From Candidatus Palauibacter australiensis (lineage in GTDB: Bacteria; Gemmatimonadota; Gemmatimonadetes; Palauibacterales; Palauibacteraceae), in the NCBI GenBank assembly GCA_026705295.1, contig JAPPBA010000111.1, forward strand, positions 1-45,839: a DNA stretch of 45,839 nucleotides. Reading direction: 5' to 3'. Positions 717 through 45,160 of the stretch are shown in pieces; position 1 is the stretch's first letter, and every line of letters starts with the position of its first letter. The position numbers and the translations under genes were made by a program. The notes beneath the pieces were generated by a model that saw only the letters and a list, made by a program, of their open reading frames with translations, did no database searches and had not been told where the DNA came from.

Positions 717-2471
717 ATGATTCGGCTTACAGCACGACGCGCCGTCTTCCTGGCCACGAGCGCCGCCCTCGCGGCGGGCGCCCTCCCTCTCCGGCTCTCC
801 GGGCAGGAGTACGACATCCTCATCCGGAACGGGCGCGTCATCGACGGCACGGGAAACCCGTGGTTCGCGGCGGACGTCGCCATCGCCGGCGACCGGATCG
901 TGCGGATCGGGAGCCTCGGAGACGCGACGGCGCGGCGCGTGGTGGACGCGACGGGGATGTACGTCTCGCCGGGCTTCATCGACCTGCACTCGCATGCCGA
1001 CCGCGCCATGACCTCCGAGCACTTGGAGGCACGGCGCGCGAAGAGCCTGAACAGCCAGGGGCTCACGACGGTCATCGGCGGGCCGGACGGCCGCAATCAG
1101 ACGTGGCCGCTCAGCGCGGAGATCGCGGCTCTCCGGGAGCTGGGACACGCGATGAACTTCGTCCCCATGGTCGGCCACAGCACGGTGCGCGCCGAAGTGA
1201 TGGGCAACGACTACTGGCGTGCGGCGACGGAGGACGAGATCGCCCGCATGCAGGCGCTCGTGCGCGAGGGAATGGAGTCGGGGGCGTGGGGGCTGGGAGC
1301 CGGCGTCGAGTACCGCCCCGCCCGCTACAGCACGCCGGAGGAGGTGATTGCCCTGGCCGAGGCCGTGGCCCCCTACGACGGTTTCTACGTCGCGCACCAG
1401 CGCAGCGAGGCGGCCATGCCGCTGTGGGAGTTGCCGAGCACCGTGACGGACTTGCCCGTGGACGGTAACGAGGGGCTGGCGGAGACTGTGAACGTCGCGC
1501 GCGAAACGGGGATCCGCGTCGTGGCGAGCCACCACAAGGCGCGGGGCCGCTCCAGCTTCGGCCGCTCCGAACAGGACACGCTGGTCGTGAACCGGGCGCG
1601 CGCGGAGGGGCTGCAAGTCTACCTGGACGTCTACCCGTACGAGACGTTCGGCGGGGGCGCGCGGCCCATGATCCCACGCTGGAGCCTGGTGCACGACACC
1701 GTGGACACGAGCGGCGGGAGGGATAGCCCGGTCTACAACCGCCCGGGGGTGTTCGACGATGCCCGGGGGCACCTGGAGCGCCGCTGGGCGGACCCGGAAC
1801 TCCAGGCTCTCATCGCCCGCGACATCGAGTGGATCGTCGACCACAACGGGGGTCCGGACCGCGTAGTCGTGGTGGGCTACCCCGACCCGACCTGGGTGGG
1901 CCGCACGCTGGAGGAACTGGGGCGCCGGCTGGACGTCACGTACCAGGAGGTCGTCGTCCACATGGCGCTCAACGGATACGCGGACGTCCTCGGCGGGGCC
2001 TGGACGCGCGGCTACGGGATCCACGACGCGGACGTCATCAACTACTACCGGCAGGACTACACGGCCACGGCCTCGGACGCGGCCGTGAGCGGGGTCGAAG
2101 GCGTGCCCGAGTTCGCCTCGCGGCCCGGCGCGCACCCTCGCCATTTCGGCGCATTCACGCGCAAGATCGCCCGCTACGTGAAGGACCTGAAGGCGATCAC
2201 GCTTCCGTTCGCGGTCCGCTCGATGACGGGGCTGCCGGCGCGGATCATCGGGCTGGAGGACCGCGGCTTTCTGCGCGAAGGCTACCGGGCGGACCTCGTC
2301 GTGTTCGACCTCGAACGCCTCCGCGATCGGGCCACCGTGCTCGAGCCGGACCTGTTCAGCGAAGGCGTCGACTACGTCATGGTGAACGGCGTGTTCACGG
2401 TCGACGGCGGCGAGTTCACCGACGAACTCCCCGGGGAGGTCATCCTGCGGCCCGGGAACTCCGCAAACTAG
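717..2471 (+). CDS. Exported N-acyl-D-amino-acid deacylase-like amidohydrolase
   Basis: This 584-residue amidohydrolase-superfamily protein has a signal peptide (MIRLTARRAVFLATS to SGQ). It is likely to cleave N-acylated (D-)amino acids or related amides in the periplasm. Family landmarks are the N-terminal beta segment ILIRNGRVIDGTGNP, the metal-site strand FIDLHSHAD, the histidines in FYVAHQRSE and VVASHHKARG, and the C-terminal GYRADLVVFDLE. The position that in characterised D-aminoacylases holds the bridging Cys of GNCG reads GGPDG here, so the cysteine is absent. Start choice: ATG at 717 opens directly on the signal peptide. ATG at 687 would add ten residues. The family is well supported; the substrate is inferred. 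Confidence 0.85.
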   Translation: MIRLTARRAVFLATSAALAAGALPLRLSGQEYDILIRNGRVIDGTGNPWFAADVAIAGDRIVRIGSLGDATARRVVDATGMYVSPGFIDLHSHADRAMTSEHLEARRAKSLNSQGLTTVIGGPDGRNQTWPLSAEIAALRELGHAMNFVPMVGHSTVRAEVMGNDYWRAATEDEIARMQALVREGMESGAWGLGAGVEYRPARYSTPEEVIALAEAVAPYDGFYVAHQRSEAAMPLWELPSTVTDLPVDGNEGLAETVNVARETGIRVVASHHKARGRSSFGRSEQDTLVVNRARAEGLQVYLDVYPYETFGGGARPMIPRWSLVHDTVDTSGGRDSPVYNRPGVFDDARGHLERRWADPELQALIARDIEWIVDHNGGPDRVVVVGYPDPTWVGRTLEELGRRLDVTYQEVVVHMALNGYADVLGGAWTRGYGIHDADVINYYRQDYTATASDAAVSGVEGVPEFASRPGAHPRHFGAFTRKIARYVKDLKAITLPFAVRSMTGLPARIIGLEDRGFLREGYRADLVVFDLERLRDRATVLEPDLFSEGVDYVMVNGVFTVDGGEFTDELPGEVILRPGNSAN

Positions 2472-2506
2472 CTCGCGCCGTCGTCGTGCCGACGAGCCTT
2501 TGAGGC

Positions 2507-2541
2507 TTGACAGGCGATATCGATATGGCCAGAATGGCCAG
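2507..2541 (+). promoter_or_regulatory. Promoter and operator of the toxin-antitoxin pair, probably leaderless
   Basis: A perfect TTGACA (2507-2512) is followed after 17 bp by CAGAAT (2530-2535), and the antitoxin ATG is at 2542. Transcription would therefore start at or next to the start codon. Between the hexamers is the palindrome ATATCGATAT (2517-2526). Two TGGCCA palindromes (2526-2531 and 2535-2540) flank and overlap the -10 element. This fits autorepression by the antitoxin. Confidence 0.6.
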
Positions 2542-2841
2542 ATGAGACGAGCCAGCGTCAGCGAAGCGAAGAACGCCCTCAGTGGACTGCTGGGCGACGT
2601 CCGTCGCGGGGAAGCTGTGCTGATCACGCATCGCGGCGAGCCCGTGGCGCGGATCGAACCTTGCCGCCCGGACGACCTGGGCGGCGACCATGAAGTCGCG
2701 GACCTCGTACGGCGGGGCGTGGCAACCCCTCCCCGCGCTCCGTTCGATGTCGAACGCTTCCTGAGTGTCCCCGCCCCGCGGCTCACCGAAGGGGTGAGCG
2801 CCAGCGAGATCATCGTGGCCGAGCGCGCCGAGGGCCATTGA
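2542..2841 (+). CDS. Type II antitoxin, Phd/YefM-like
   Basis: This 99-residue protein opens with RRASVSEAKNALSGLL and continues with VLITHRGEPVARIEP. That is the characteristic Phd/YefM N-terminal DNA-binding fold: an 'SxxEAKxxLSxLL' helix, then a strand with 'ITxRGxPVAxI'. The C-terminal half is less conserved and would wrap the toxin. It is read just upstream of a PIN-domain toxin, and its TGA overlaps the toxin's TTG start, so the two are translationally coupled. ATG at 2542 lies 6 bp after the -10 hexamer, without a Shine-Dalgarno. A longer frame from 2500 exists but would start upstream of the promoter. It is expected to neutralise the toxin and repress its own promoter. Confidence 0.87.
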   Translation: MRRASVSEAKNALSGLLGDVRRGEAVLITHRGEPVARIEPCRPDDLGGDHEVADLVRRGVATPPRAPFDVERFLSVPAPRLTEGVSASEIIVAERAEGH

Positions 2842-3257
2842 AATACTGGGACTCGTCGGCACTCGTGACACTTCTCGTGGACGAGGCGGGCAGCGCCCGG
2901 CGCCGTGCCACGATCCGGGACGATCCGGCGATCGTTACGTGGTGGGGAAGCCGCGTCGAATGCGCGTCGGCCCTGAACCGCCTCCACCGGGAGCGGCATT
3001 TCGAAGCCGGCGGGCTCGACCGGTCCCTGGAGCAGCTTCAGCGGCTGGCGGCCAGTTGGATAGAGATCGAGCCCCTCGAACAGGTTCGTAACCGTGCGAT
3101 CAGGCTACTTCGGCTTCACCCGCTGCGGGGGGCGGACGCGCTGCAGTTGGCGGCGGCCCTTGCCGCGGCAGCCGAAGATCCGCAGCGGCTCGAGCTGGTC
3201 AGCGGCGACCACCGCCTCTCCAACGCCGCAAGGCGCGAGGGGTTCAAGGTTCTTTGA
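2838..3257 (+). CDS. vapC: VapC-like PIN-domain ribonuclease toxin
   Basis: This 139-residue protein has the full set of PIN-domain acidic residues: Asp in KYWDSSALV, Glu in RVECASAL, Asp in RGADALQLAAAL, and Asp in VSGDHRLSNAA. PIN toxins of this type cleave RNA and inhibit translation unless bound by the cognate antitoxin. The start is TTG at 2838, giving a 4-base overlap with the antitoxin stop (TTGA). The length is normal for VapC and all acidic residues are present, so the gene looks intact. The TA assignment rests on the pairing with the Phd-like antitoxin. Confidence 0.88.
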   Translation: MKYWDSSALVTLLVDEAGSARRRATIRDDPAIVTWWGSRVECASALNRLHRERHFEAGGLDRSLEQLQRLAASWIEIEPLEQVRNRAIRLLRLHPLRGADALQLAAALAAAAEDPQRLELVSGDHRLSNAARREGFKVL

Positions 3258-3281
3258 ACTGGTCGTGACTGAGGACATCGG

Positions 3282-15618: not shown

Positions 15619-18600
15619 TCAGCGGCGCCAGGCCGACGCGCCGGGGAGCCCGCTGCTCACGAGTACTTGGAGCCCTGGCTCGGGAGCGAGATCCTCCGCC
15701 GCGCTCTGTGCCAGCGGACCGGAGGGCAGATCGCGGAAGATGGCGCGGACCTGGCCCGTACCCGGATCCCGCAAGATCGCCATCGGCGGTTCGCTCCCCT
15801 CGGCGATCTCGACGGTACCCCCCGGCCCGGCGAGGGAGAGACTCGTCAACGCCGTCTCCCACACCGGCTCCACGGGCAGCGCGAAGGTGAATCCGGACTC
15901 CCCGTCTCCGTCCCAGATCACTCCCATGTCAAAGCTGATGGAGAACAGTTCGCTGCCGTCGGCGCGCTCTCCGGTCAGCGTGTACGGCCCGGGCGCGTGC
16001 GGCAACACCGGACGCGCGTCGACGACGAAGGCGGGGTCGAGGTGGAGCGCACCGTCCGCGCCAGCCCCCCCGGATACGAGCAGCGTCCGGCTCGCGGCCG
16101 GCGCCTCCCACACCTCGAGCGTATCCTGCAGCCGGTAGCGCAGCGCGTTCGTGAAGTAGTAGTCGCTGACCCACGTCGGGTCGCAATACGACATGAAGTC
16201 CCGCACCGGGGAGCCTGGGTCGACCAGCGACCCGCCATCCCGCGAATCCCAGCCCCAGATGCCGATTCGCCCCCCGTCGTGGGGATAGCTCAGGTCCGGG
16301 CCGCCTTCGTTCCCCGAGCACAGCACGTGGAACAGGCTAAGGTTATGACCGAGTTCGTGGGCGAACGTCTCCGCGCTCAAAACCGAGATCGCGACTTTGC
16401 CGGAGTAGGGGATCTCGTTCGAGAAGAACGGGAAGGTCGCGCGACCCGCAATGTTACCCCCGATATCCGGGATCATACCCACCCAGTGTCCCACCCCATC
16501 CTCCATCACCCGAATCCTTCCGACATCGGCAATGAGGTCGCCGGAGTCGTTCGAATCGACCGTAACGCTCGGATGGCGTGTAAGCTCGATGTCCGCCACC
16601 GGGAGATACGTCCTCGTCTGCCAGAAGAAGTCGTCCTCAGGGTCGGCCGTACTCACGAACGTCGCGGCCTCGCGGTCGTTGTCCCCCGTCCAGACCATGG
16701 GGAGCAGGGTCAGAAGCAGCGGCGGCACGGCCTTCACATCCACCGCCATCCGTTCGCTCTCCGGGATGCGCCTCGACACGCCGAGGCTCGGATCGAGCGT
16801 CCCATCGGGGTCGATCTCCACAACCATTTCCAGTCCGGGCTGGATCACATCGGCGGAGATAACGGCGTGGGGCGAAAGATCCAGTTCTCCTTCCTGTACT
16901 TCCGTCGGGATCGCGGCTGAACCCGCCGGGATGTCCTCGACGTGCACCTCCGCACCGTCCACGAAGAAGGTGGCCCGGACGGGCGGGAGCATGGCCCCGG
17001 TCTCCTGTTCGGACATTACGAACACGCGCAGGAGCGCCTCTCTGCCGGCTACGAGCGGGACGGGGTAGTCGCGCGACTGCGCTGCCTGAATCAGGTAGGC
17101 ATCGGCATGGGCCTCCCCGCCGCATGTCCGGATCCTGTACTTCGGGAGCGCCGACTCCAGCCACGTGCGGAATGCGGGTGTCTGCGGCATGCACAACCCG
17201 GTGCCGGACGCAACCAGTTCAAAGAGTTCCTCGAGCTGCGTCATGCTCTCGGGCAAAGGACCCGACAGGTCAGGGTTGTCCTGGAACCAGAGAACCTCGA
17301 GCGCGCCGGCGTCGCCGAGTTCCGGCGGCAGTGCGCCCGACAGCATGTTGCCGTCCACTGCGATCACCTGGAGGCTATCGAGCTGGCCAAGTTCCCCGGG
17401 CAGCGGCCCTTCGATTTCATTGTCGGACAACTCCAGCAGCCACAGGCTGTCGATCTGGGCAATCGCCGGGGGAATGGGGCCCGACACGAGGCTCTGGTAG
17501 ACCTGGAGCATCTGAAGCTTCTCGAGCGCCCCAAGGCTTGCCGGAAGCGGACCATCGATCCTGGTGTCGGCGATCCTCAGCCGCCTCAGTTCGCTCAGGT
17601 TCCCGAACTCCTCGGGGATCGAGCCCTCGAACCGGGCCTCGTAGAGGTGGAGTATCCGGAGGCTCTCGAGGTTCCCGAACTCGGGCGGGATGGGGCCGCT
17701 CATCTGGTTGCCGCCCATCCAGAGCACTTCGAGGTTGACGAGCTTCCCGAACTCGGGCGGGATGCTGCCGTTGAAGTTGTTGCCGTCGATGTCCATCCGC
17801 CGCAGTTCGGTGAGCAGGCCGATTTCCGGCGGGATCTCGCCCTCGAGCCGGTTATAGTCCAGACGGAGCACCCGCAGGTACGGGAAGTACTGGATCTCGG
17901 GAGGAATCTCGCCCGAGAGGCCGTTGCGGTTCAGGTTGATCGTAGTGACCCGGCCGGCCGAATCGACTGCGATGCCGGACCAGTTCCCGAGCGGAGCGTC
18001 GGTCCCCCAGTTGCCTGACTCCGTCCAGTTCTCTCCTCCCATGGCCTCGTACAACTTCATCAGGTCCGACCGTTCCTCGTTGCAAGCGAGGAACTCGCCC
18101 TCGCGCGTGGGAACGGCGTTCAGCCACGCCTGGAAGCCCTCATCGCGAACGGTGCAGAGCATCGTGCCGCCGTAGTTGAGCGTCTGGATGCCCAGCGCCG
18201 ACAGGGAGAACGGGATGGGACCGGAGAGGTTGCCGTTCCCGCCCACCTCCACTTCGGTGAGGAAGGCCATGCTGCCGAGGTCGTCGGGAAGCTGACCGTT
18301 CAGGCCGTTCTCGCTCAGCTCGATCGCCGTCACACGGGATTGCTCGTTCGCCGTCACGCCGTACCAGCTCCCGACCGGCGCGTCGGTCCCCCAGCCGCCG
18401 TTGTTCGTCCACTCGCCCCCGCGCGTGCCGAGGTAGAGGTCCATGAGCGTCGCGCGATCCAGGCTGTGCACCGCGACCGGAGCGGAGTTCGAGACGGGGC
18501 CCGACGTGGCGGTCAGGCTCGCGTTGCCCTCCTTCAGGCCGGTCACGAGTCCGGTGGCGTCGACCGCCGCGACGGTCGGATCGCTGCTTGTCCACGTCAC

Positions 18601-18885
18601 CACCGCATCCGAGATGGGCTGCGCCCGGTCGTTCAGGACGCGCGCCCGCACCCGAACCGTGTCGCCCGCCACGACCGCGACCTCTTCCGGGTCCAGCGTG
18701 ATTCTCGCCGGCACGGTCGCGGTCGGAGGAGGCGGCGGCGGCCCGGGCGGCGGCCCCGAAGTCTCCCCTCCGCCACAGGAGAGAATGGCCAGACCGAGAA
18801 AGCCGAGCGCCGCGGAACGCCAGACACGGACGCGAGAGAAAGCTGAACCTTCGGAATCGGAGATCGTGCGGGTGCGCTTCGCCAT
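15619..18885 (-). CDS. Lipoprotein with Ig-like, leucine-rich-repeat and metzincin-like protease regions (copy 1)
   Basis: This 1,088-residue protein has, in order: a lipoprotein signal with lipobox LAILSC (Cys37); a proline-rich linker; a bacterial Ig-like domain (about 58-140, ARITLDPEEVAVVAGDTVRV); two LRR caps of the 'LYxxxGGxxWT..GWGTDAPxGxWxG' type; about ten plant-type LRRs (LxGxIPPEFGxLxxL) to about residue 560; a beta domain (YPVPLVAGREALLRVFV); and a protease region with HELGHNLSLFH (843-853) and the Met-turn segment DFMSYCD (Met898). HExxHxxxxxH plus a Met-turn is the metzincin zinc site; the usual Gly before the third His is absent. It should sit on the cell surface or in the periplasm. 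ATG at 18885 opens on the signal peptide. It is a tandem paralogue of 19048-22314. Confidence 0.86.
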   Translation of the reverse strand: MAKRTRTISDSEGSAFSRVRVWRSAALGFLGLAILSCGGGETSGPPPGPPPPPPTATVPARITLDPEEVAVVAGDTVRVRARVLNDRAQPISDAVVTWTSSDPTVAAVDATGLVTGLKEGNASLTATSGPVSNSAPVAVHSLDRATLMDLYLGTRGGEWTNNGGWGTDAPVGSWYGVTANEQSRVTAIELSENGLNGQLPDDLGSMAFLTEVEVGGNGNLSGPIPFSLSALGIQTLNYGGTMLCTVRDEGFQAWLNAVPTREGEFLACNEERSDLMKLYEAMGGENWTESGNWGTDAPLGNWSGIAVDSAGRVTTINLNRNGLSGEIPPEIQYFPYLRVLRLDYNRLEGEIPPEIGLLTELRRMDIDGNNFNGSIPPEFGKLVNLEVLWMGGNQMSGPIPPEFGNLESLRILHLYEARFEGSIPEEFGNLSELRRLRIADTRIDGPLPASLGALEKLQMLQVYQSLVSGPIPPAIAQIDSLWLLELSDNEIEGPLPGELGQLDSLQVIAVDGNMLSGALPPELGDAGALEVLWFQDNPDLSGPLPESMTQLEELFELVASGTGLCMPQTPAFRTWLESALPKYRIRTCGGEAHADAYLIQAAQSRDYPVPLVAGREALLRVFVMSEQETGAMLPPVRATFFVDGAEVHVEDIPAGSAAIPTEVQEGELDLSPHAVISADVIQPGLEMVVEIDPDGTLDPSLGVSRRIPESERMAVDVKAVPPLLLTLLPMVWTGDNDREAATFVSTADPEDDFFWQTRTYLPVADIELTRHPSVTVDSNDSGDLIADVGRIRVMEDGVGHWVGMIPDIGGNIAGRATFPFFSNEIPYSGKVAISVLSAETFAHELGHNLSLFHVLCSGNEGGPDLSYPHDGGRIGIWGWDSRDGGSLVDPGSPVRDFMSYCDPTWVSDYYFTNALRYRLQDTLEVWEAPAASRTLLVSGGAGADGALHLDPAFVVDARPVLPHAPGPYTLTGERADGSELFSISFDMGVIWDGDGESGFTFALPVEPVWETALTSLSLAGPGGTVEIAEGSEPPMAILRDPGTGQVRAIFRDLPSGPLAQSAAEDLAPEPGLQVLVSSGLPGASAWRR
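17603..18862. repeat. 1,260-bp direct repeat, copy 1
   Basis: Apparently identical base for base to 21032-22291 (offset 3,429 bp). It covers residues of about 8 to 428: lipoprotein signal, Ig-like domain, caps and the first half of the LRRs. Identity stops abruptly at both ends: mismatch at 17602 versus 21031 and at 18863 versus 22292. Comparison was by eye, line by line. Confidence 0.93.
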
Positions 18886-18990
18886 GGGTCTGCCTTGCGT
18901 CTTGGGGAGAAGCGGCGACGAACGGCGAAGGACTGCCGAATCGTTACCGCGCAACACCCCCGGTATCACTGAAAAGAGACCACCTCCCTA

Positions 18991-19042
18991 ACCTAGATAC
19001 GCGCCGCCGGGTTGGCATCCTCCAACGTGCCTGGAGGCTGTA
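18991..19042 (-). pseudogene. Short remnant of an S9 peptidase gene 3' end (relic 2)
   Basis: On the minus strand this reads H-V-G-G-C-Q-P-G-G-A-Y-L, matching the C-terminus KHLGGCQPRGASPD of the intact S9 gene at 22506. A shorter match to the preceding DMYGRLQ codons sits beside it after a deletion. It lies between the stop of LRR copy 2 and the start of copy 1, together with an otherwise featureless 105-bp leader. Confidence 0.65.
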
Positions 19043-19047
19043 CCCCG

Positions 19048-22000
19048 TCAGCGTCGCCAGGCCGACGCGTCCGGGAGTCCGCTGCTCACCATCACTTCGA
19101 GTCCCGGCTCCGGCGCGCGGGCACCCGCCGCGCTCTGGGCCAGCGGACCCGCCGGCAGGTCGGTGAAGATGGCCCGCACCTCGCCGGTCCGCGGATCGCG
19201 CAGGATCGCGACCGGAGGCTCGCTTCCCTCCGTCATCTCCACGCTGCCGCCCGGCCCGGAGAGCACGAGGCTCGCCATCTCCGTCGCCCAAGTCGGCTGC
19301 ACGGGCAGCGCGAACGAGAATCCGGACCGACCGTCGCCATCCCACACGCCGGCCATCGTGAAGCTGAGCGAGAAGAGTTCGCCGCCGTCCGCCCGGCGCC
19401 CGGTCAACCGCCACGGCCCGCCGGAGGTGGGCACGGCCGGCCGTGTGTCGACGACGAAGGCGGGATCGAGCCAGGGATCGCCGTCCGCCGTGACGCCGCC
19501 GGACACCACGAGCATCCGCGAGGCGGCCGGCGCATCCCGCCGAACGTCGGTCGTGTCCTGGAGACGGAAGCGCAGCGCGTTCGAGAAGTAGTAGTCGCTG
19601 ACCCACGACGGGTCGCAGTAGGTCATGAAGTCCCGGACCGTGGATGCGGGGTCCACGAGCGACCCGCCGTCGCGCGGATCCCAGCCCCAGACGCCGATCC
19701 CACCGTTCTCGTGCGGGAAGGTGAGGTCCGGACCTCCTTCGTCTCCCCTGCACGCCGCGTGCGACAGGCTGATGTTGTGCCCGAGTTCGTGCGCGATCGT
19801 CTCCGCGCTCAGTATCGAGACCGCAGTCTTCCCCAGGTGGGTAAGGCTGTCGGGCCCGAATGGCAGCCACGCGACGCCCGCGGCACCATCTGCGTCCGGG
19901 ATGAGCCCCATCCAGTGTCCGACTCCATCCTCCACCGTCCGGATGGTCACGACCCGGTCCAGGATCTCGAAGATGTCGTTCGTGTCGATCCTGACGCTCG
20001 CGTGCCGGATGATCTGTAGTTCCTCGACGGGGAGGTAATTGTTCGTCTGCCAGAAGATCTCGTCGTCCGGGTCGGCGTTGCTGACGAGCGTCACGGCACC
20101 CTGGTCGTTGTCGACGGTCGAGACGAACGGGATCAGGGTCAGGTACATCGGAGGCACGGCCTTCACATCAACGGCCGATTGCCCGGTCTCGGGGATGCGC
20201 TTCGACACGCCCAGGTTCGGGTCGAGCGTGCCATCGGGGTCCACCTCCACGACCATCTCCAACCCCGGCTGGATCACGTCGGCGGGGATGATGGCATGAG
20301 GCGAGAGGTCGAGTTCGCCCTCCTGCACCTCCGTCGGAATCGCCGCTGAACCGGCGGGGATGTCCTCCACGTGCACCTCCGCGCCGTCGAGGAAGAACGT
20401 GGCCCGGACGGGCGGGAGCAGCGCCCCGGTCTCCTGTTCGGATGTCACGAAGACGCGCAGGAGCACCTCCTCCCCGGCCACCAGCGGCACGGGATAGTCG
20501 CGCGACTGCACCGCCTGCGTCAGGTAGGCCTCGGCGTGGGCCTCGGCCCCGCAGGTCCGGATCCGGTACTTCGAGAGCGCGGACTCCAGCCACGTACGGA
20601 AGGCGGGAGTCTGCGGCATGCACAACCCGGTGTCCGCCGCCTGCAGCTCGAAGATCTCATCGAGCGCGGTCATGCTCTCCGGCACCGGGCCCGACAGGTC
20701 CGGGTTGCCATTGAGCCGTACGCTGTAGAGCCCGCTTGCGTCGCCAAGGTCGGCGGGCAGCGGTCCGGACAACCGGTTGTTCTGCGCCCAGAGAAAGCGG
20801 AGGCTGTCGGCCTGACCGAGTCCGGCAGGAAGCGGCCCCTCGATGTCGTTGTCGGAGACCCAGAGCGAGAACAGGCTGTCGAGTTGCCCAATCCACGAGG
20901 GGAGGGGTTCCGACAACTCGTTTTCGAAGAGGCGGATCGCACGGAGCCTCCCGAGCGCCGCCATGCTTTCGGGCAGTCCCCCGTCGATGTTCGTCTCCGT
21001 GATGCGGAGGATCTCCAGTTCGGTCAGCCTTCCGAACTCCTCGGGGATCGAGCCCTCGAACCGGGCCTCGTAGAGGTGGAGTATCCGGAGGCTCTCGAGG
21101 TTCCCGAACTCGGGCGGGATGGGGCCGCTCATCTGGTTGCCGCCCATCCAGAGCACTTCGAGGTTGACGAGCTTCCCGAACTCGGGCGGGATGCTGCCGT
21201 TGAAGTTGTTGCCGTCGATGTCCATCCGCCGCAGTTCGGTGAGCAGGCCGATTTCCGGCGGGATCTCGCCCTCGAGCCGGTTATAGTCCAGACGGAGCAC
21301 CCGCAGGTACGGGAAGTACTGGATCTCGGGAGGAATCTCGCCCGAGAGGCCGTTGCGGTTCAGGTTGATCGTAGTGACCCGGCCGGCCGAATCGACTGCG
21401 ATGCCGGACCAGTTCCCGAGCGGAGCGTCGGTCCCCCAGTTGCCTGACTCCGTCCAGTTCTCTCCTCCCATGGCCTCGTACAACTTCATCAGGTCCGACC
21501 GTTCCTCGTTGCAAGCGAGGAACTCGCCCTCGCGCGTGGGAACGGCGTTCAGCCACGCCTGGAAGCCCTCATCGCGAACGGTGCAGAGCATCGTGCCGCC
21601 GTAGTTGAGCGTCTGGATGCCCAGCGCCGACAGGGAGAACGGGATGGGACCGGAGAGGTTGCCGTTCCCGCCCACCTCCACTTCGGTGAGGAAGGCCATG
21701 CTGCCGAGGTCGTCGGGAAGCTGACCGTTCAGGCCGTTCTCGCTCAGCTCGATCGCCGTCACACGGGATTGCTCGTTCGCCGTCACGCCGTACCAGCTCC
21801 CGACCGGCGCGTCGGTCCCCCAGCCGCCGTTGTTCGTCCACTCGCCCCCGCGCGTGCCGAGGTAGAGGTCCATGAGCGTCGCGCGATCCAGGCTGTGCAC
21901 CGCGACCGGAGCGGAGTTCGAGACGGGGCCCGACGTGGCGGTCAGGCTCGCGTTGCCCTCCTTCAGGCCGGTCACGAGTCCGGTGGCGTCGACCGCCGCG

Positions 22001-22314
22001 ACGGTCGGATCGCTGCTTGTCCACGTCACCACCGCATCCGAGATGGGCTGCGCCCGGTCGTTCAGGACGCGCGCCCGCACCCGAACCGTGTCGCCCGCCA
22101 CGACCGCGACCTCTTCCGGGTCCAGCGTGATTCTCGCCGGCACGGTCGCGGTCGGAGGAGGCGGCGGCGGCCCGGGCGGCGGCCCCGAAGTCTCCCCTCC
22201 GCCACAGGAGAGAATGGCCAGACCGAGAAAGCCGAGCGCCGCGGAACGCCAGACACGGACGCGAGAGAAAGCTGAACCTTCGGAATCGGAGCTCGTGCGG
22301 TTGCGCGTCGCCAT
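19048..22314 (-). CDS. Lipoprotein with Ig-like, leucine-rich-repeat and metzincin-like protease regions (copy 2)
   Basis: Same length (1,088 residues) and domain order as copy 1 at 15619-18885: lipobox LAILSC, proline linker, Ig-like domain, LRR caps, plant-type LRRs, beta domain, protease region. The zinc motif is HELGHNISLSH (842-852), with Met-turn segment DFMTYCD. Residues after about 428 differ from copy 1. The last LRRs (for example LTELEILRITETNIDGGLPESM and SEPLPSWIGQLDSLFSLWVSDN) are largely replaced. The C-terminal protease half is a diverged but clearly homologous copy. The likely function is cell-surface proteolysis with target choice set by the LRRs (inference). ATG at 22314 lies about 150 bp after a promoter-like remnant at 22464-22491, which could drive it. 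Confidence 0.86.
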   Translation of the reverse strand: MATRNRTSSDSEGSAFSRVRVWRSAALGFLGLAILSCGGGETSGPPPGPPPPPPTATVPARITLDPEEVAVVAGDTVRVRARVLNDRAQPISDAVVTWTSSDPTVAAVDATGLVTGLKEGNASLTATSGPVSNSAPVAVHSLDRATLMDLYLGTRGGEWTNNGGWGTDAPVGSWYGVTANEQSRVTAIELSENGLNGQLPDDLGSMAFLTEVEVGGNGNLSGPIPFSLSALGIQTLNYGGTMLCTVRDEGFQAWLNAVPTREGEFLACNEERSDLMKLYEAMGGENWTESGNWGTDAPLGNWSGIAVDSAGRVTTINLNRNGLSGEIPPEIQYFPYLRVLRLDYNRLEGEIPPEIGLLTELRRMDIDGNNFNGSIPPEFGKLVNLEVLWMGGNQMSGPIPPEFGNLESLRILHLYEARFEGSIPEEFGRLTELEILRITETNIDGGLPESMAALGRLRAIRLFENELSEPLPSWIGQLDSLFSLWVSDNDIEGPLPAGLGQADSLRFLWAQNNRLSGPLPADLGDASGLYSVRLNGNPDLSGPVPESMTALDEIFELQAADTGLCMPQTPAFRTWLESALSKYRIRTCGAEAHAEAYLTQAVQSRDYPVPLVAGEEVLLRVFVTSEQETGALLPPVRATFFLDGAEVHVEDIPAGSAAIPTEVQEGELDLSPHAIIPADVIQPGLEMVVEVDPDGTLDPNLGVSKRIPETGQSAVDVKAVPPMYLTLIPFVSTVDNDQGAVTLVSNADPDDEIFWQTNNYLPVEELQIIRHASVRIDTNDIFEILDRVVTIRTVEDGVGHWMGLIPDADGAAGVAWLPFGPDSLTHLGKTAVSILSAETIAHELGHNISLSHAACRGDEGGPDLTFPHENGGIGVWGWDPRDGGSLVDPASTVRDFMTYCDPSWVSDYYFSNALRFRLQDTTDVRRDAPAASRMLVVSGGVTADGDPWLDPAFVVDTRPAVPTSGGPWRLTGRRADGGELFSLSFTMAGVWDGDGRSGFSFALPVQPTWATEMASLVLSGPGGSVEMTEGSEPPVAILRDPRTGEVRAIFTDLPAGPLAQSAAGARAPEPGLEVMVSSGLPDASAWRR
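21032..22291. repeat. 1,260-bp direct repeat, copy 2
   Basis: Partner of 17603-18862. Synonymous positions show no difference across the tract, whereas flanking coding sequence of the same two genes is clearly diverged. This indicates recent recombination or gene conversion rather than protein-level selection. Confidence 0.93.
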
Positions 22315-22354
22315 GGGTCTGCCTTGAGTCTTGGGGGGAAGGGCAACTGTTACA

Positions 22355-22463
22355 CTAATCTAGAGACGCGCCGTCGGCTTGGCATCCTCGAAAATGCTTG
22401 TCGAAAGATCCATGGAGCCGGCTGTACATATCAATCGAACCGGAGGGGTTTCGGAAGCCGTGG
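22355..22463 (-). pseudogene. Remnant of an S9 peptidase gene 3' end (relic 1)
   Basis: These 109 bp align without gaps to 22506-22614, the last 36 codons of the intact S9 gene, at about 80% identity by eye. They read HGFRNPSGSIDMYSRL followed by GCQADGASLD and the same TAG stop. Upstream, the match ends exactly where a promoter-like sequence begins, so most of an S9 gene copy has been deleted between its promoter and its tail. Confidence 0.8.
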
Positions 22464-22491: not shown

Positions 22492-22505
22492 TACCGGAGG
22501 TCACG

Positions 22506-24500
22506 CTAATCCGGAGACGCGCCGCGGGGTTGGCATCCTCCGAGGTGCTTGTCGAAAAAGGCCTGGAGCCGGCCGTACATGTCGATCGAATTGGCGGGGT
22601 CCCGGAAGCCGTGGCCCTCGGGGTACGTCTTCGATTCAAACTCCTTGCCGAGCGCCTCGAGCCGCTCGACCGCGAGTTCGAAATTCTCGAACGGCGCCCT
22701 TACGTCGAACTCTCCGTGCATGATGAGGACGGGCGCCGTGATGCGGTCCATCCGGTCGAGCGTCTCGCTCTTCGCGTAGATGTCGGGCCGCTCCTCCGGC
22801 GTCCCGCCGTGCCCCGTGATCGCGAAGATCTTCCCCACGCGGTCCGCGTGCGGCAGCGTCAGGGATTCGGAGTAGATGCCGCGCATGGGGACGGCCGCGT
22901 CGAACTTGTCGGGCGTGCGCGTGATCGCGGACATGGACTGCATGCCTCCGTAGCTCCCGCCGTAGATGCCGATGCGCCCGTTCACGTACGGCTGGCGGCG
23001 CAGCCAGTCCGCCGCGGCGCCCGGGTCCTTCGACTGGTCGTTCAGCCAGTCCTCCACCGACAGATCCTGAAACTCACGCCCGAAGCCGGACCCTCCGCGA
23101 TAGTTGATGGCGAGCACGACGAATCCCTCGTTCGCCAGGTACTGCTCCACGAGGTTCGTCCCCTGCGTGTAGGAGTTCGTTCCGCCGCCGTGTACCTGGA
23201 CGAGAGCCGGGCAGGCGGGCGGGTCGGAGCCGGCGGAGCGCGCGGCCCGGATCGCCGGCGGCAGGTAGAGGAATCCCTGGATGTACAAGCCGTCAAAGGA
23301 GCGGAAGGAGATCTCCGCAGGCCGCTGGACGCCCTCGAAGTGCGGCGAGAAGTCCGTCAGGCGAACCGGGGTGCCGCCCCCGAGGTCGAGGAACCAGGCT
23401 TCCCTGCCCTCCGTCGCCGCATCGCGCGTGAACGCGGCGCGGCGGCCGTCCGGCGTCGCGTGCAGGGATGACCAGGATCCGCCGACGTTCGTGACGCGCG
23501 TGGCGACGCCGCCCGACGCGGGGACGGACCACAAGTCGAAGGCCCCGCGCTGCTGGTACGGGAAGTAGATGCGCTCGCCGTCGCCGGACCAGAAGGGGTC
23601 GAAGCGCATGATCGCGTCGGTCGCGTAGACCTGCATGTCGAGCGGCGCTTCCCGGAGGGCGCGCGGAGCGGCGCCGGTGAAGTCGAGGTCGATCCGGTAC
23701 AGGTAGGCGAGGTCCTGATACCAGTACTCGTCCTTGGCCGTCCCCATCAGCACGAGGGTCGATCCGTCCGGCGACCAGACGGGGCTGGATGAGGCCATGA
23801 GCAAAGTGGAGACCCGGTGGGTCTCGCCGGACGCCACGGCGACGAGCCACACGTCGTCGTGCCACCAGTCGGCCCGGTTCGAGATGTAGGCGATCCACCG
23901 GCCGTCCGGCGACCACATGGGGCTGAAGCGGCTGTCCTCGGCCTCCGCCGCGCCGGCCGTCAGCTGCCGGGGCGGCGCCGCCCCGGCGGCGTCCACGAGC
24001 CAGATGTCCTGGGAACCGGACCCCGTGGAGTAGTACGCCAAGGTCTCCCCATCCGGCGACCACGACGGGGCCCGCAGGCCGCTCGCGCCCTCCACCACCA
24101 CCCGGCCCGGCTCTCCGGTGGCGGCGACAAGGAGGTCTCCTCCGGCGATGAAGGCCAGCCGCTCTCCGTCCGGCGACCACGTCTGCGCCCGGCCGGCGAC
24201 CCGGAAGGTCGAGGCGTCTCCCCCGGCGGCCACCACCTCCGCCGGCGCCGGAATCGGGACAAGGTGAACACCGGATCCGCTGCCGCCCCCGGCGGGTCCG
24301 GCCACGGCGAGCATGGACCCGTCGGGCGAGAGCACCGCCCGCCCCGCGCCCCCTCCGGCGGTGAAGACGTTCTCCAGCGTGAGCGGGATCCGGCCCGCTT
24401 CGTCGACGCCGCGGCTGGAGGACGAGCAACCGGCAGCGAGGAGCCCCATGACCGCGGGCAGGAGGTAGCGCGTTCGGACGGTTCGCGGGGATCGAGGCAC
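22506..24500 (-). CDS. S9-family peptidase lipoprotein (prolyl oligopeptidase-like) A
   Basis: This 664-residue exopeptidase candidate has a lipoprotein signal (VPRSPRTVRTRYLLPAVMGLLAAGC). The beta-propeller (about 60-400) has WSPDG repeats. The alpha/beta-hydrolase domain has Ser516 in IYGGSYGGM, Asp599 in HGEFDVRAP and His630 in EGHGFRDP as the catalytic triad. Such enzymes cleave short peptides after they enter the propeller funnel, here in the periplasm. GTG at 24500 is chosen because GGAGGAGGAG lies just upstream and it opens on the signal. A diverged paralogue is at 32003-33958, and two 3'-end relics lie at 22355 and 18991. Confidence 0.93.
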   Translation of the reverse strand: MPRSPRTVRTRYLLPAVMGLLAAGCSSSSRGVDEAGRIPLTLENVFTAGGGAGRAVLSPDGSMLAVAGPAGGGSGSGVHLVPIPAPAEVVAAGGDASTFRVAGRAQTWSPDGERLAFIAGGDLLVAATGEPGRVVVEGASGLRAPSWSPDGETLAYYSTGSGSQDIWLVDAAGAAPPRQLTAGAAEAEDSRFSPMWSPDGRWIAYISNRADWWHDDVWLVAVASGETHRVSTLLMASSSPVWSPDGSTLVLMGTAKDEYWYQDLAYLYRIDLDFTGAAPRALREAPLDMQVYATDAIMRFDPFWSGDGERIYFPYQQRGAFDLWSVPASGGVATRVTNVGGSWSSLHATPDGRRAAFTRDAATEGREAWFLDLGGGTPVRLTDFSPHFEGVQRPAEISFRSFDGLYIQGFLYLPPAIRAARSAGSDPPACPALVQVHGGGTNSYTQGTNLVEQYLANEGFVVLAINYRGGSGFGREFQDLSVEDWLNDQSKDPGAAADWLRRQPYVNGRIGIYGGSYGGMQSMSAITRTPDKFDAAVPMRGIYSESLTLPHADRVGKIFAITGHGGTPEERPDIYAKSETLDRMDRITAPVLIMHGEFDVRAPFENFELAVERLEALGKEFESKTYPEGHGFRDPANSIDMYGRLQAFFDKHLGGCQPRGASPD

Positions 24501-34007: not shown

Positions 34008-34568
34008 CTAGTCGAATTCGAATACGACGCCCAGATCGAAGCCGAGCGCCATGGCATGGTCGGTACTCGACGGGGTGTCGGCCGACATGCGCCGCCAGGA
34101 CAGGCCCGGCCCGATGCGTGCCCGGCCGAGGCGAAGGCGGAGTCCTGCGCCCGCCTCCAGACCGGGGCCCGCCCGCGGGCTCTCGCCTTCGGTCCCGACG
34201 CGCGTCGTGCCGTAGAGGACGCCGACCCGGCCCCACAGCCAGCCTCGCGACAGCTCCACGCCGAGGGCGGCGTGGTTGCCGGTGACCGTCGGCTCTCTCC
34301 CGCGGCAGAACCCCTCCCTGCAGCCGAAGGCGGTACGGACATACCCCGCGGAGACGGCGACCCGTGGGCGCAGCCGTCGCGCAATCCGGATTTCGTACGA
34401 GAGGGCAGGAGCCCATTCGAGAGCCGCCGCAGTGGACGTGTGATTCCCCACGGCGAGGCCGCTCCGCACCTCCACGGAGGTCTGCGCGGCGGCGCGCCCG
34501 ACGATCGGCGTGCCTGCGGCCATCATCAGCGCCAGGACGAAGGCGGCGCGGCGCCGCGGGCCGTTCAT
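34008..34568 (-). CDS. Small outer-membrane beta-barrel candidate
   Basis: This 186-residue protein has a signal peptide ending near GRAAAQ. Alternating polar/hydrophobic strands follow, typical of an eight-stranded barrel: YEIRIARRLRPRVAVSAGYVR, GVELSRGWLWGRVGVLYG, GAGLRLRLGRARIGPGLSWR, and a C-terminal strand ALGFDLGVVFEFD. One cysteine pair (FGCREGFCRG) could form a disulfide in an extracellular loop. I cannot name the family. Its ATG overlaps the TGA of the upstream metzincin gene (34565-34568), so the two are coupled. It may be a membrane partner or anchor for the protease, but that is inference. Confidence 0.72.
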   Translation of the reverse strand: MNGPRRRAAFVLALMMAAGTPIVGRAAAQTSVEVRSGLAVGNHTSTAAALEWAPALSYEIRIARRLRPRVAVSAGYVRTAFGCREGFCRGREPTVTGNHAALGVELSRGWLWGRVGVLYGTTRVGTEGESPRAGPGLEAGAGLRLRLGRARIGPGLSWRRMSADTPSSTDHAMALGFDLGVVFEFD

Positions 34569-36400
34569 TGCCGCGGCCGCGGGGTCCCCTCGCGCGGGAC
34601 TCCGTCGCTGACCATGAGGTCCAACCCCTCCGCCCACGGAGGCACCTTCCCGGGGTCGCGCAGGATGCCGCGCAGACGGCGCGTGCCCGGGTCCAGAGCC
34701 AGGGCTGTCGCGCGCCCCCCGGAGCGTCGGATCGCGACGGCGCCATCCGGACCGGAGAGTTCGACCCGATTCAGTCCACCGGGACCGCCCCAGCGGCTCT
34801 CCCAGGGAATCGCGAAGGCGAACTGTCCACCGCCGTACTCCAGTTCGTCCGGCGTGAAGGAGAAGGAAAACAGGGACCGGCCCGCCGCGTCGAGCCCTTC
34901 CAGGCGATATGGACCCTCGCCGGTCGGTGTCGTCGCGGGCGCGTCGATGACGAAGGCGGGCTCGAGCAGGAGGTCCCCGGCGCCGGCATTCCCCCAGAGG
35001 AGCAGCGTCGGTTCGGGCTCGACGCTCCGCAGGATCAGCGATTCGTGCTCCCGCCGGAACTCCATGGCCTTGACGAAGTGATAGTCGCTGATCCAACTCG
35101 GGTCGCAGTACGTCATCAGGTCCCAATACTCGGCCGGATCGACCATTCGCGTGTCCCCGCGCCGCGTCTCGTACCCGAAGACGCCGATGGAGCCGTCCTC
35201 GTACGGGAAGTCCGGATCGGGGTTCAGGGCCAGGCCGCACGGTGCATGCCGCAGCCCCATGTTGTGCCCGAGTTCGTGGGCGAAGGTGTCGAGATCGAGT
35301 ATGCCCACGCCGATCGGCCGCCCGATATAGCCCAGTCCCTTGAACGGGGCATCCGGAGGCGCTGCGAGGGCGGCATAGTAATAGTCCCGCCGTCGTTCCG
35401 TGAGCCGGAGCACGCTGATCTCGCGCAAGAGCTCCAGCCAGCCTTCCGCCGTCTTCAGGTCCGCTGTCGTGTGGTACGGCTCGTGTAGCGTGAGTTCCAG
35501 TTCGCCGATCGGGAGTATGGAACGGACGAACGCGATCCCGGCGCTCGTCTCCGTCATCCCGTTGACCCAGGCCAGGGCGGTCTCCGCATCCGCGGAGTGC
35601 AACACCGGTACCACCGTCAGATGCATTGGCGGAACGGTCAGCACATCCAGCCTCATGCGTCCTTCGGCCGGCACGCGCCGGTCGCTTCCCTGGGCCGCCG
35701 GCACGAGGCCGTCCGGATCCAGCTCCACGACCAGTTCGACCCCGGGCCTCAGGACCTCACCCGGAACGACCCCGTTGAAGGATCGGTCGAGTTTCCCCTC
35801 GTCGGGCTCCACAGGGATCCGGTCGGCCGCGGGATCCAGGCGCATCGCGTGGATCGCGGCACCGTCTTCATAGAAGGTCGCGAGCGGACGGGGACGATAG
35901 AAGCTCGTCTTGTCACCTGTGACGAACACTCGCAGGAGCGCTGAACGGCCCGCAATCAGAGGGATGTCCCCTCCCAGCGTCTGCACCGCCTGCGTCAGAT
36001 GCACGGCGGCCGCTTCGATCGTGACGCTCCGGGGGTTCACCCTCACCCAGGCGCCGGCCTGCAGGCTCGCCACCTCCGCGGCAACCCGCGTTTCGTACCC
36101 CCCCTCGAGGCCGATGACCTCCCCGTCCGCGCTGACTGAGGCGATGGACGGATCGGACACGGACCAGCGCGGCGGCGCCCAGGCGGGAATGCTGCTGAAG
36201 GCCGCACCACTCTCGTCCAGTACCCGAAACCGATACCGGACAGTTTCGCCCTCGAGGACGATGGCATCGGCCGGGAGAAGCTCGAGCGCTCCCGGAACCC
36301 GCTCGGGTTGCGATGCAAGGTCGCTGCAGCCGGCCGCCGCGAGGGTTGCGAATAGAAGTCGCCTGTTCACGCTGCCCACCTTGTTCGCCCGCCGCACCAT
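34565..36400 (-). CDS. Metzincin-like protease lipoprotein without LRRs
   Basis: This 611-residue protein has lipobox LAAAGC (Cys25), then an Ig-like domain (about 35-125, APPRWSVSDPSIASVSADGEV) and the same beta domain as the two LRR proteins (VHLTQAVQTLGGDIPLIAGRSALLRVFV). The protease region has HELGHNMGLRH (375-385), a complete HExxHxxGxxH zinc site, and Met-turn segment DLMTYCDPSWISDY. The C-terminal beta domain also matches the LRR copies. It is the simpler member of a three-gene family in this window, lacking the LRR block. ATG at 36400 was chosen; GTG at 36370 has a better purine tract (AGGTGG) and is a real alternative. It overlaps the barrel gene by 4 bp. Confidence 0.85.
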   Translation of the reverse strand: MVRRANKVGSVNRRLLFATLAAAGCSDLASQPERVPGALELLPADAIVLEGETVRYRFRVLDESGAAFSSIPAWAPPRWSVSDPSIASVSADGEVIGLEGGYETRVAAEVASLQAGAWVRVNPRSVTIEAAAVHLTQAVQTLGGDIPLIAGRSALLRVFVTGDKTSFYRPRPLATFYEDGAAIHAMRLDPAADRIPVEPDEGKLDRSFNGVVPGEVLRPGVELVVELDPDGLVPAAQGSDRRVPAEGRMRLDVLTVPPMHLTVVPVLHSADAETALAWVNGMTETSAGIAFVRSILPIGELELTLHEPYHTTADLKTAEGWLELLREISVLRLTERRRDYYYAALAAPPDAPFKGLGYIGRPIGVGILDLDTFAHELGHNMGLRHAPCGLALNPDPDFPYEDGSIGVFGYETRRGDTRMVDPAEYWDLMTYCDPSWISDYHFVKAMEFRREHESLILRSVEPEPTLLLWGNAGAGDLLLEPAFVIDAPATTPTGEGPYRLEGLDAAGRSLFSFSFTPDELEYGGGQFAFAIPWESRWGGPGGLNRVELSGPDGAVAIRRSGGRATALALDPGTRRLRGILRDPGKVPPWAEGLDLMVSDGVPREGTPRPRQ

Positions 36401-36432
36401 GGGCAAGCCGGCCGCCGGGTCGTCCGTGGCGG

Positions 36433-37485
36433 TCACGACGCCGAAGCGCGCGTTTGACGCAATCCTGCGGCGATGAACGTCCATTGCAGCATCATCTGGT
36501 CGCGCACCGGCATCGGGACCAGTCCGCTCTTCCTCGCGTCGGCGGAGATCGCGTCTGGCGCGGCCCCCGCGGACAGCTCGTGTCTCCAACCGTCGAGCCG
36601 TCTCTTCCAGCGTTCGGCGACCGGGTCCGGCGGGCCCGGCCTGTCTCCCACGCCGGGGAGGATGAAGAGCGGCATCTCCGACACGAGCGTGAGCGTGTCG
36701 TGGCCGAAGGAGCGCACCGCTTCCATCGAACTCGGCCAGAAGCGCGACGCCGTCGCGGAGTCGCCCAGGGCTTCAAAGTGGGCGGCCATGCGTTTCGAGT
36801 CGGGCCGCGAGGCGAACCCCCGTTCGAAGCGGAAGAAACCCTTCTCCCCGTGACGCTCGACATCGTGCAGCGCGTAACCGAGCGCCCGTGCGCGTCGACG
36901 ACAGGAGGCCTTGAGCGCTTCGCACCGGTTTTCCCAGGCGCGATCGATGAGGAAAAAGGGACCCGCGGCGAACCCCATGCCGTGCAGGGAGGCGTGCAGC
37001 GCGAACGGTCGATCGCAGGTGCGCCACCAGTCGTAGGCCGCGCGGTTCTCTGGCCGCGCGCCTGGATCGGCGTCGTCGCGGGGGAAGCCGAATTCGATGT
37101 CGTCGCCGGGCAGTTCCCGCACCTTGCCCGCCAGGTATCGCCCGAGATCGTAGGCGTCCGCGTCGGGATCCTGCCACGGGGCGTTGCGGCGCTCGCCGTC
37201 CGGATTGATGTGCGGGATGATCCACCACTGATGGCGGGTGAGCATCGGATCCTCCGCGTCGAGTCCCGCCAGGTAGCCGGCGAGACGACGCAGAAGGCGC
37301 GGCCCCACCGGTTCGTCGGCGTGGCAACCGCCGAGCAGGCTCACGGCCTCGGGCCCGCGCCCGAAGCGGAAACCCCGGACGGGCCGTCCCTCGCGAGACG
37401 TCCCGAGCACGCACCCGGAAGCCGTGGCAACGTCCCGGGCGGACATGATCCGGTTGAACCGTCCCGTCAGCGGGATCTCGATCAC
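36433..37485 (-). CDS. M14-family zinc carboxypeptidase-like protein
   Basis: This 350-residue protein has the M14 zinc site: H-x-x-E in LGGCHADEPVG (His55, Glu58) and a later His in LHASLHGMGF. The general-base Glu is likely in TLTLVSEMPLF. The segment WWIIPHINPDGERRN is the N-P-D-G element of M14 enzymes. It has no signal peptide, so it probably acts in the cytoplasm on imported peptides or glutamyl/amino-acid conjugates. The start is uncertain: GTG 37485 is used here, with GTG 37545 and ATG 37446 as alternatives. It leads the operon that continues with the metzincin lipoprotein 32 bp downstream. Confidence 0.84.
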   Translation of the reverse strand: MIEIPLTGRFNRIMSARDVATASGCVLGTSREGRPVRGFRFGRGPEAVSLLGGCHADEPVGPRLLRRLAGYLAGLDAEDPMLTRHQWWIIPHINPDGERRNAPWQDPDADAYDLGRYLAGKVRELPGDDIEFGFPRDDADPGARPENRAAYDWWRTCDRPFALHASLHGMGFAAGPFFLIDRAWENRCEALKASCRRRARALGYALHDVERHGEKGFFRFERGFASRPDSKRMAAHFEALGDSATASRFWPSSMEAVRSFGHDTLTLVSEMPLFILPGVGDRPGPPDPVAERWKRRLDGWRHELSAGAAPDAISADARKSGLVPMPVRDQMMLQWTFIAAGLRQTRASAS

Positions 37486-41200: not shown

Positions 41201-41877
41201 CGGGAGGCCAGCGGGGCGAAGTCGGCGAGTTCCCGCAGCAGGTCGAGCGCACGGTCGAGTTCGGCCTCCCGGTCCCACTCGGGTCTGGACCACGGCGCAT
41301 CGAAGTCGCGCTGGTCCACGAGACTGCCGGCCGCCGCCCGCAGCGCCGCGCGCGGACCGCCCGAATTCCGCCGATCGCGGCGGCGCAACGCCCTCCTCAC
41401 GCCGGGACCGGGGTCCGCCAGCGCGCCCTCGAACCAGCCCTCGAAGGCGCCATCGAGGAGACGTCCGGCTTCGTCATCCGGCGCGACCCGGAACGCCGGA
41501 TCGACGCCGGCCTCGATCGGCCGCTCGCGCAGCAGATCGGCGCAGAAGCCGTGGATCGTGCCGATGTGGGCGAGTTCCAGGTGGCCGAGCGCACGCGAGA
41601 GACGCGCACGGGCGCCCCCGTCTTCCTCTGCCATCCGGGCCTCCTCGATGGCCGCCCGCAGCCGGAGCTTCATTTCGCCGGCTGCCTTTTCGGTGAAGGT
41701 GACGGCGACGATGTCCTCCAGCGTGCCGAGACCGCGTCTCAGCACCTCGACGATCCGGTCCGTGAGCGCCGTCGTCTTCCCCGTCCCCGCCGCCGCCTCG
41801 ACGAATAGCGTGTCGTCGAGATCCTGCCGGATCGCGTCGCGGGCCTCCTGGTCGGCGAGTCTGCCGGGCCGGGTCAC
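38233..41877 (-). CDS. addA: AddA-like helicase-nuclease (UvrD/RecB superfamily)
   Basis: This 1,214-residue protein combines an SF1 helicase and a C-terminal nuclease. It unwinds and resects double-strand DNA ends so that RecA can load. Motifs: Walker A AAAGTGKT (28-35), VAVTFTEKAAGEMKLRLR (motif Ia), FFVDEFQDTDPLQ (Walker B), VVGDPKQSIYRFRRAD (motif III), MTVHKAKGLEFPVV (motif V), YVAATRARDLL (motif VI), and a RecB-type nuclease core with GDLVHRIL, EGVADLAF and VVDYKTDRRP. GTG at 41877 overlaps the TGA of the upstream AddB-like gene, so the two subunits are translationally coupled. All helicase motifs are present. Confidence 0.92.
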   Translation of the reverse strand: MTRPGRLADQEARDAIRQDLDDTLFVEAAAGTGKTTALTDRIVEVLRRGLGTLEDIVAVTFTEKAAGEMKLRLRAAIEEARMAEEDGGARARLSRALGHLELAHIGTIHGFCADLLRERPIEAGVDPAFRVAPDDEAGRLLDGAFEGWFEGALADPGPGVRRALRRRDRRNSGGPRAALRAAAGSLVDQRDFDAPWSRPEWDREAELDRALDLLRELADFAPLASRPEDYLTQNLRNIERGVREIERREETRGRDHDYLEAWLRSFVGARWRGWFWRGFRSRDFGGGLAKADVVARRDEVRAEVEGILQTADADLAAHLRDELWPVTERYERAKRRDGCLDFVDLLLRARDLLRDRAEIRAHYRQRFTRFFVDEFQDTDPLQVEILLLLCGEDPEETRPERIVPASGKLFVVGDPKQSIYRFRRADVMLYEKTKRRLEDAGARVLHLSTSFRSQPRLQAAVNGAFEARMKASEDGSQAAYVPLAPFRADTGSQPAVIALPVPKPYGRFGKIRGIEIEESLPVAVGEMVRWLVRESGWVVTERERPEAPVPVEARHICLLFRRFQKWGEDVTRPYVRALEARAVPHVLVGGRSYHDREEVLAVRNALTAIEWPDDRLAVYAALRGPLFSLGDRSLFEFRVDVGPLHPLAGWGPDGEIGGNERKEDGTALKPELRDVATVLGLLGDLHRHRNRRPIPETVRRLLSAARAHAGIAIWPTGEQALANVLRLVDRARAFERRGSPSFRAFLDRLDDEAERGQSEEAPIVEEGTEGVRMMTVHKAKGLEFPVVILADMTCPAAHEPPSHHMDAPRRLWAQRLCGATPRDILDNAEVERRREMAEADRLAYVAATRARDLLVVPALGDGRDGLGGFSGEDGEWWLESLNPAIYPPRGARRRPSSAEGLGAPAFRDESVLDRPDRKGGQRPAPGDSVAPGLHIAAAGTDVVWWDPAALDLDADPRAGDRQRRLLEVEREEQPSLDVEAGRGAHREWQASRAARLKAGGRRTMSVTTARAIARRAAEASEAGDPPRSDPRVAWIEVPRPEAERSDGAGRPGGERFGDLVHRILATVPLDTDTGAVEGLAGTLGRALGSPEPEIVAAAALAARVLEHEVLDRARAALASGPGAVRREVPVFYAGETVGPDGEQNREGGAGIVEGVADLAFRELTGSGPRWTVVDYKTDRRPAAARTEYEAQVACYVEAIERASGEPTRGIVLAL

Positions 41878-45026: not shown

Positions 45027-45160
45027 GGCCACAACCTAGCGCCGCGAACGCAACGCGCTATCAACGCCCCGTGAACGGCGCAGTGCTTGACGCCGCCGAG
45101 GGCCGCGGACGATCCTCAGAAATGACGCTCGTGTACCGCTGCATCTCCGCGTAGCCGCCC

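Follow-up and report, generated by a model that had tools for sequence, protein, structure and literature searches.

Evidence for gene conversion and exchange of allele ends in a tandem pair of predicted surface LRR-protease genes of Candidatus Palauibacter

Organisation of the locus

Candidatus Palauibacter is placed in an order of sponge-associated Gemmatimonadota (described in PMC10469786). The genome under study, a MAG of this genus (G000), is 3.58 Mb in size, is distributed over 188 contigs and is 95.5% complete. The window, the stretch of 45,839 nucleotides of it that was analysed, carries two tandem paralogous genes, A and B (Table 1), whose neighbours code for S9 peptidases, a sodium:solute symporter and PQQ-type propeller proteins. 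An alternative start of gene A at 18969 was replaced, 18885 (MAKR...) being the most likely start. The upstream S9-peptidase gene has its tail in two copies, a scar left by an earlier duplication or recombination. Elsewhere in the window (38233-45032), a gene for a UvrD-type helicase adjoins PD-(D/E)XK nuclease/helicase genes in an AddAB-like arrangement.

Table 1. Positions of the features of the tandem locus within the window.
Feature	Position	Strand	Remarks
Gene A: predicted lipoprotein with Big_2 Ig-like domain, LRRs, M66-like zinc protease and C-terminal region	15619..18885	-	1088 aa; class-A C-terminal half
Gene B: tandem paralogue with the architecture of gene A	19048..22314	-	1088 aa; class-B C-terminal half
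Identical tract, gene A copy	17603..18862	-	Gene nt 24-1283; signal, proline-rich linker, Ig-like domain, cap, first LRRs
Identical tract, gene B copy	21032..22291	-	
Variable LRR block, gene A	17186..17602	-	Gene nt 1284-1700; source outside the sampled alleles
Variable LRR block, gene B	20615..21031	-	Ordinary B type, 90% to G002
Class-A C-terminal half	15619..17185	-	M66-like protease and C-terminal region
Class-B C-terminal half	19048..20614	-	
Tandem junction	18886..19047		Intergenic; includes ~40 bp left over from the upstream S9-peptidase gene (its 3′ end)
Tail of upstream S9-peptidase gene, second copy	22349..22449	-	79% identical to the other copy, 22500-22600

Predicted proteins

Pfam analysis of both gene products identified a Big_2 Ig-like domain, LRRs and a partial match to M66 (PF10462), the latter with scores of 30.5 (A) and 19.7 (B) at a cut-off of 20.6 and covering approximately 50 of the 306 positions around an HExxH motif. 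The original prediction had labelled the proteins metzincins. This is favoured by their zinc motif (HELGHNLSLFH/HELGHNISLSH), in which the ligands and the spacing of the third ligand are kept, and by a Met-turn-like DFM[ST]Y (DFM[ST]YC) in the protease part, but the usual Gly of HExxHxxGxxH is replaced by Ser and the M66 match of B falls just below the cut-off, so that the label is fair but imperfect. When the sequence of the protease part was compared with solved structures, no match was significant, and structure prediction of the whole protein (mean pLDDT of 47) was confident solely in the LRR part (about 310-560), which by sequence is of the plant-receptor type. LRR variability is concentrated only moderately at exposed positions. 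A lipobox-like LSC-GG following a hydrophobic stretch is kept, as judged by eye, in 11 of 11 sequences. The products are predicted surface LRR-proteases, which would be displayed on the outer membrane, bind their targets by the LRRs and act by proteolysis, and host- or microbe-derived targets may exert selection on them. Another M66-like paralogue lies in the window at 34565-36589 (36% to A and B), with no LRR found there by Pfam, and G000 has about a dozen further LRR-protease paralogues (contigs C26, C38, C127, C135, C160, C174, and C177), many of these at contig ends.

The identical tract

The maximal exact repeat in the window is 1,260 bp in length (offset 3,429, no N) and the second-longest is one of 26 bp. 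Its sequence is present exactly twice in the whole genome, both times on this contig. It was originally proposed from inspection of the sequence that genes A and B match base for base over this stretch, synonymous sites included, and are diverged on either side of it; the exact repeat has the same coordinates as those proposed. Codon comparison of the two genes gave a dN of 0 and a dS of 0.003 for the tract (codons 9-428), the latter due to one boundary codon, and a dS of 0.68-0.77 with a dN of 0.07-0.35 for all later segments, which bears out the proposal on both counts. Since the remaining sequence of A and B is only ~65-80% identical, identity by chance over 1,260 bp is impossible. The domain layout agrees with the tract spanning the signal, Ig-like domain, cap and first LRRs, as also predicted.

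Sharp borders had been claimed for both ends of the tract. The 3′ border (gene nt 1283/1284) is indeed abrupt, with mismatches at 0/60 positions before it and 23/60 after it. The 5′ border is found 23 nt into the coding sequence. Beyond it, diverged, alignable homology continues for only ~70-100 bp more before the intergenic sequences part; this border is therefore nearly the end of the shared unit.

Two C-terminal classes in related genomes

The locus is syntenic in congeners, and the identity of its flanks to the window is about 82-94%. A single gene is its usual state in related genomes, this gene being of one type (class A) in G001, G007, G009, and G010 and of another (class B) in G002, G011, G015, and G016, while two genes are present in G000, G003, and G014. 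The classes are defined by gene nt 1700-3267, where identity is about 82-97% within a class for the main group, lower within class for the distant G015, and 66-83% between classes. The N-terminal part is not ordered by these classes. Just downstream of the first gene, an orphan copy of the 3′ tail (about 95 aa) was seen in G014 (L068:6697-6976) and G005 (L071:11416-11695).

In the C-terminal tree, classes A and B each receive 100% bootstrap support. AU tests rejected the grouping of the two G000 genes (7e-53) and of the two G003 genes (5e-59) in the C-terminal tree, and for the N-terminal tree they rejected a single class-A group (5e-8). Recombination was supported by a PHI-type test (0/200 permutations reaching the observed value). 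These p-values are qualitative only, as columns altered by a single recombination event lack independence and the grouping was decided on once the identity table had been seen. On the flank tree of the eight single-gene genomes the class label changes four times, which is the maximum possible. Classes A and B are thus trans-species and are distributed regardless of the flank tree. Related genomes had been suggested as the place to look for recombinant alleles, and the comparison between genomes supports an exchange of the LRR/protease end.

Relatives of the family were also seen in four MAGs titled Gammaproteobacteria (L108, L110, L111, and L113), two from a series (RHO) and two from another (SB06xx) that also yield Palauibacter bins, reflecting either transfer or mis-binning.

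A second tandem pair and gene conversion

The tandem pair of G003 has its own exact tract, which is 951 bp in length, lies at about gene nt 151-1101 and has borders unlike those of G000. This tract recurs in the named record L089 (a NODE-type contig, 410x by its title). G000 and G003 have orthologous tandem junctions, each with a short S9-peptidase tail remnant. Between A and B of G003 there is also a MITE-like insertion of ~160 bp with inverted ends (TGTCGTGTCCCGGAAAT...) at L059:10370-10532, which is absent from G000.

As this junction and both C-terminal classes are common to the two genomes, the A/B pair is older than the G000-G003 split. N-terminal dS is 0.003 (G000) and 0.072 (G003) between paralogues within a genome and 0.28-0.32 between orthologues of G000 and G003. 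With the pair predating the split and its N-terminal parts matching within each genome, each pair must have been homogenised separately. Paralogues are closer than orthologues over bounded tracts (1,260 and 951 bp), while the flanking gene parts keep the older paralogue phylogeny, their C-terminal tree being ordered by class. The gene conversion put forward in the original prediction is strongly supported by these data, the N-terminal parts undergoing concerted evolution through recurrent gene conversion. As to its direction in G000, allele profiles give a hint of A as donor at nt 1140-1200 only. A contrasting case is a family tandem pair in a different Gemmatimonadota MAG (L095), which is ~87% identical throughout and has no tract.

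Identity of this kind might also be produced by assembly, either if the N-terminal sequence of one gene had been collapsed or duplicated or if two strain alleles had been joined as a false tandem, and it should be mentioned that G000 is a MAG of many contigs with several paralogues at contig ends and that the locus is interrupted by contig ends in G005 and G008. However, the junction between A and B has its own sequence, in which the tail of the upstream gene is duplicated, its orthologue occurs in the separate assembly of G003 and the exact tract in G003 is a different one. Two strain alleles with common flanks would, moreover, give a bubble in the assembly graph and no new junction. Misassembly at the locus is unlikely, and an artefactual origin of the pattern is accordingly regarded as very improbable. 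A few true differences within the near-identical tract could have been lost to short-read assembler collapse.

A recent tandem duplication with subsequent horizontal replacement of one C-terminal half, leaving the identity as a remnant of the duplication, would likewise leave the copies identical in their 5′ part and diverged in their 3′ part, and near-identical genomes of the genus do differ in their alleles. It is difficult to reconcile with a pair that predates the G000-G003 split, given the shared junction and the A and B C-termini in both genomes, and yet has genome-specific N-terminal parts, or with the divergence between copies of the 5′ and intergenic sequence beside the tract. We consider it highly improbable, and conversion between A and B to be the preferred explanation of the tract.

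Allele differences between near-identical genomes and mosaic alleles

Genomes G001 (class A) and G016 (class B) have locus flanks that are 99.8 and 98.9% identical, and identity was 98-100% at the two other loci that were the only further places compared, one of them split over G016 contig ends. At the locus itself, 100-bp windows over most of the LRR and protease parts show differences of about 15-40% between the two genes, and in the N-terminal segments the average difference is 5-11%. Divergence sets in about 40-60 nt ahead of the stop codon and dies away within the upstream gene's tail. This contrast would result from allelic replacement or, if the ancestor had a tandem pair, from differential loss of its members, and single-gene genomes of either class could have arisen by deletion in such a pair instead of by replacement. 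The G001 gene (class A) has an in-frame stop in its LRR part (L066:9063-9065), the mark of a pseudogene or a sequence error. Loop-skipping was considered as a source of single-gene genomes and is not favoured for either type: B-type genomes are incompatible with it, B adjoining the outer 3′ flank, and for A, no left-over B-class contig was seen.

The variable LRR block of gene A is 65.6-68% identical to all other alleles of the locus with the exception of that of G014A (77% over the alignable part). No better source was identified in the genus genomes searched and no donor was found inside G000, where the best match (73%) was gene A's own paralogue; the block is of a third, unsampled origin. 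Mosaicism was also seen in L098, with an N-terminal part close to G000 and a C-terminal part nearest G015, and at the second G003 locus (G003:C47), where parts of nt 1650-2400 reach up to 90-95% identity to class B and the N-terminal part has ~80%. It had been suggested that a target-recognition end is swapped over a constant anchor. An exchange of the LRR/protease end finds support in the two trans-species C-terminal classes, with A in G001 and B in the near-identical G016, but not in the tract itself, which homogenises the anchor.

Dedicated machinery or general recombination

It had been suggested that the locus could be a surface diversification system. A dedicated system (a diversity-generating retroelement, a shufflon or antigenic variation from silent cassettes) would be in keeping with a constant anchor and variable LRR/protease ends, with several paralogues as potential donors and with the orphan 3′ tail copy adjoining the G014 gene. 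Nevertheless, the scanned proteins of the window include no identifiable recombinase or reverse transcriptase, no RVT_1 reverse transcriptase, the mark of a retroelement of this type, was found in the 95.5% complete G000 genome, no inverted repeats expected of an invertible shufflon were found at the tract borders, and no silent-cassette array was seen. In the window as a whole, the only exact inverted repeat of at least 20 bp is a palindrome at 23966. In addition, the alleles belong to ancient classes under purifying selection on average (dN/dS 0.06-0.46) and the LRR block of gene A lacks a donor in G000. The suggestion of a dedicated system is not supported and there is scarcely any probability left to it; such machinery is also unneeded, as general homologous recombination suffices for both processes.

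The pattern is very probably explained by a recent A/B gene conversion of the anchor together with separate homologous exchange of the ends between strains and loci. The starting point would be an old tandem pair with C-terminal halves from the long-separated classes A and B. One copy would then have had its gene nt 24-1283 overwritten by the other in a recent homologous recombination event, presumably of the RecA type. The high identity of the anchor would keep it convertible and the ~20-40% diverged LRR/protease part would resist conversion, so that tract borders would fall where the variable LRRs start. In a separate process, homologous exchange among strains, and of this locus with others, would replace whole or partial alleles and thereby shuffle A/B C-termini and LRR blocks among species and near-identical strains.

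More speculatively, the anchors may be kept identical as a recombination substrate, with repeated conversion and the exchange of A/B ends and LRR blocks among co-resident sponge symbionts forming a genus-wide allele pool under balancing selection; this we regard as doubtful. Were it true, strains within one sponge would differ in the target range of their surface proteases. The locus, from an uncultured sponge symbiont, has been caught at several stages, namely tandems with fresh tracts, single genes of either class and near-identical genomes differing in class. It offers a testable case of symbiont variation in host- or microbe-facing proteins through plain homologous recombination, and a warning that the N- and C-terminal trees of such proteins give different histories.

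Comparison with known systems

In the internalin clusters of Listeria, tandem LRR surface proteins likewise recombine within their LRR or constant parts, as in the formation of the hybrid inlH from inlC2 and inlD. The internalins differ in being cell-wall proteins with no protease and in yielding a fused hybrid gene, whereas A and B remain two copies with a homogenised 5′ half.

With polymorphic toxins (PMC3482391), the locus has in common a conserved N-terminal part, an exchanged C-terminal end and, beside the G014 gene, an orphan C-terminal fragment. Unlike in those toxins, the ends here are homologous full-length alleles with mostly 66-84% identity between classes, and no toxin domain was found in the Pfam scan. 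The resemblance to peptidase M66 (PF10462) lies in the partial match around HExxH and the Met-turn-like motif, A and B differing as predicted lipoproteins with LRRs and in the Gly to Ser change.

The closest published parallel is LigA/LigB of pathogenic Leptospira, tandem surface Big_2 lipoproteins with nearly identical 5′ parts (-266 to +1890) and unique C-terminal parts, for which gene conversion aided by tandem order has been proposed and recombination between strains reported (PMC7821625). The A/B pattern, in which tandem predicted lipoproteins with a Big_2 domain likewise have a shared 5′ and a distinct C-terminal part, works as already described there and has in it a close precedent. However, LigA and LigB consist of homologous arrays of 12-13 Big_2 domains with no LRRs or protease, while A and B have one Big_2 domain, LRRs and an M66-like domain and are not members of that family. 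A and B differ further from LigA/LigB in having two classes common to several species and in the difference in class between near-identical genomes.
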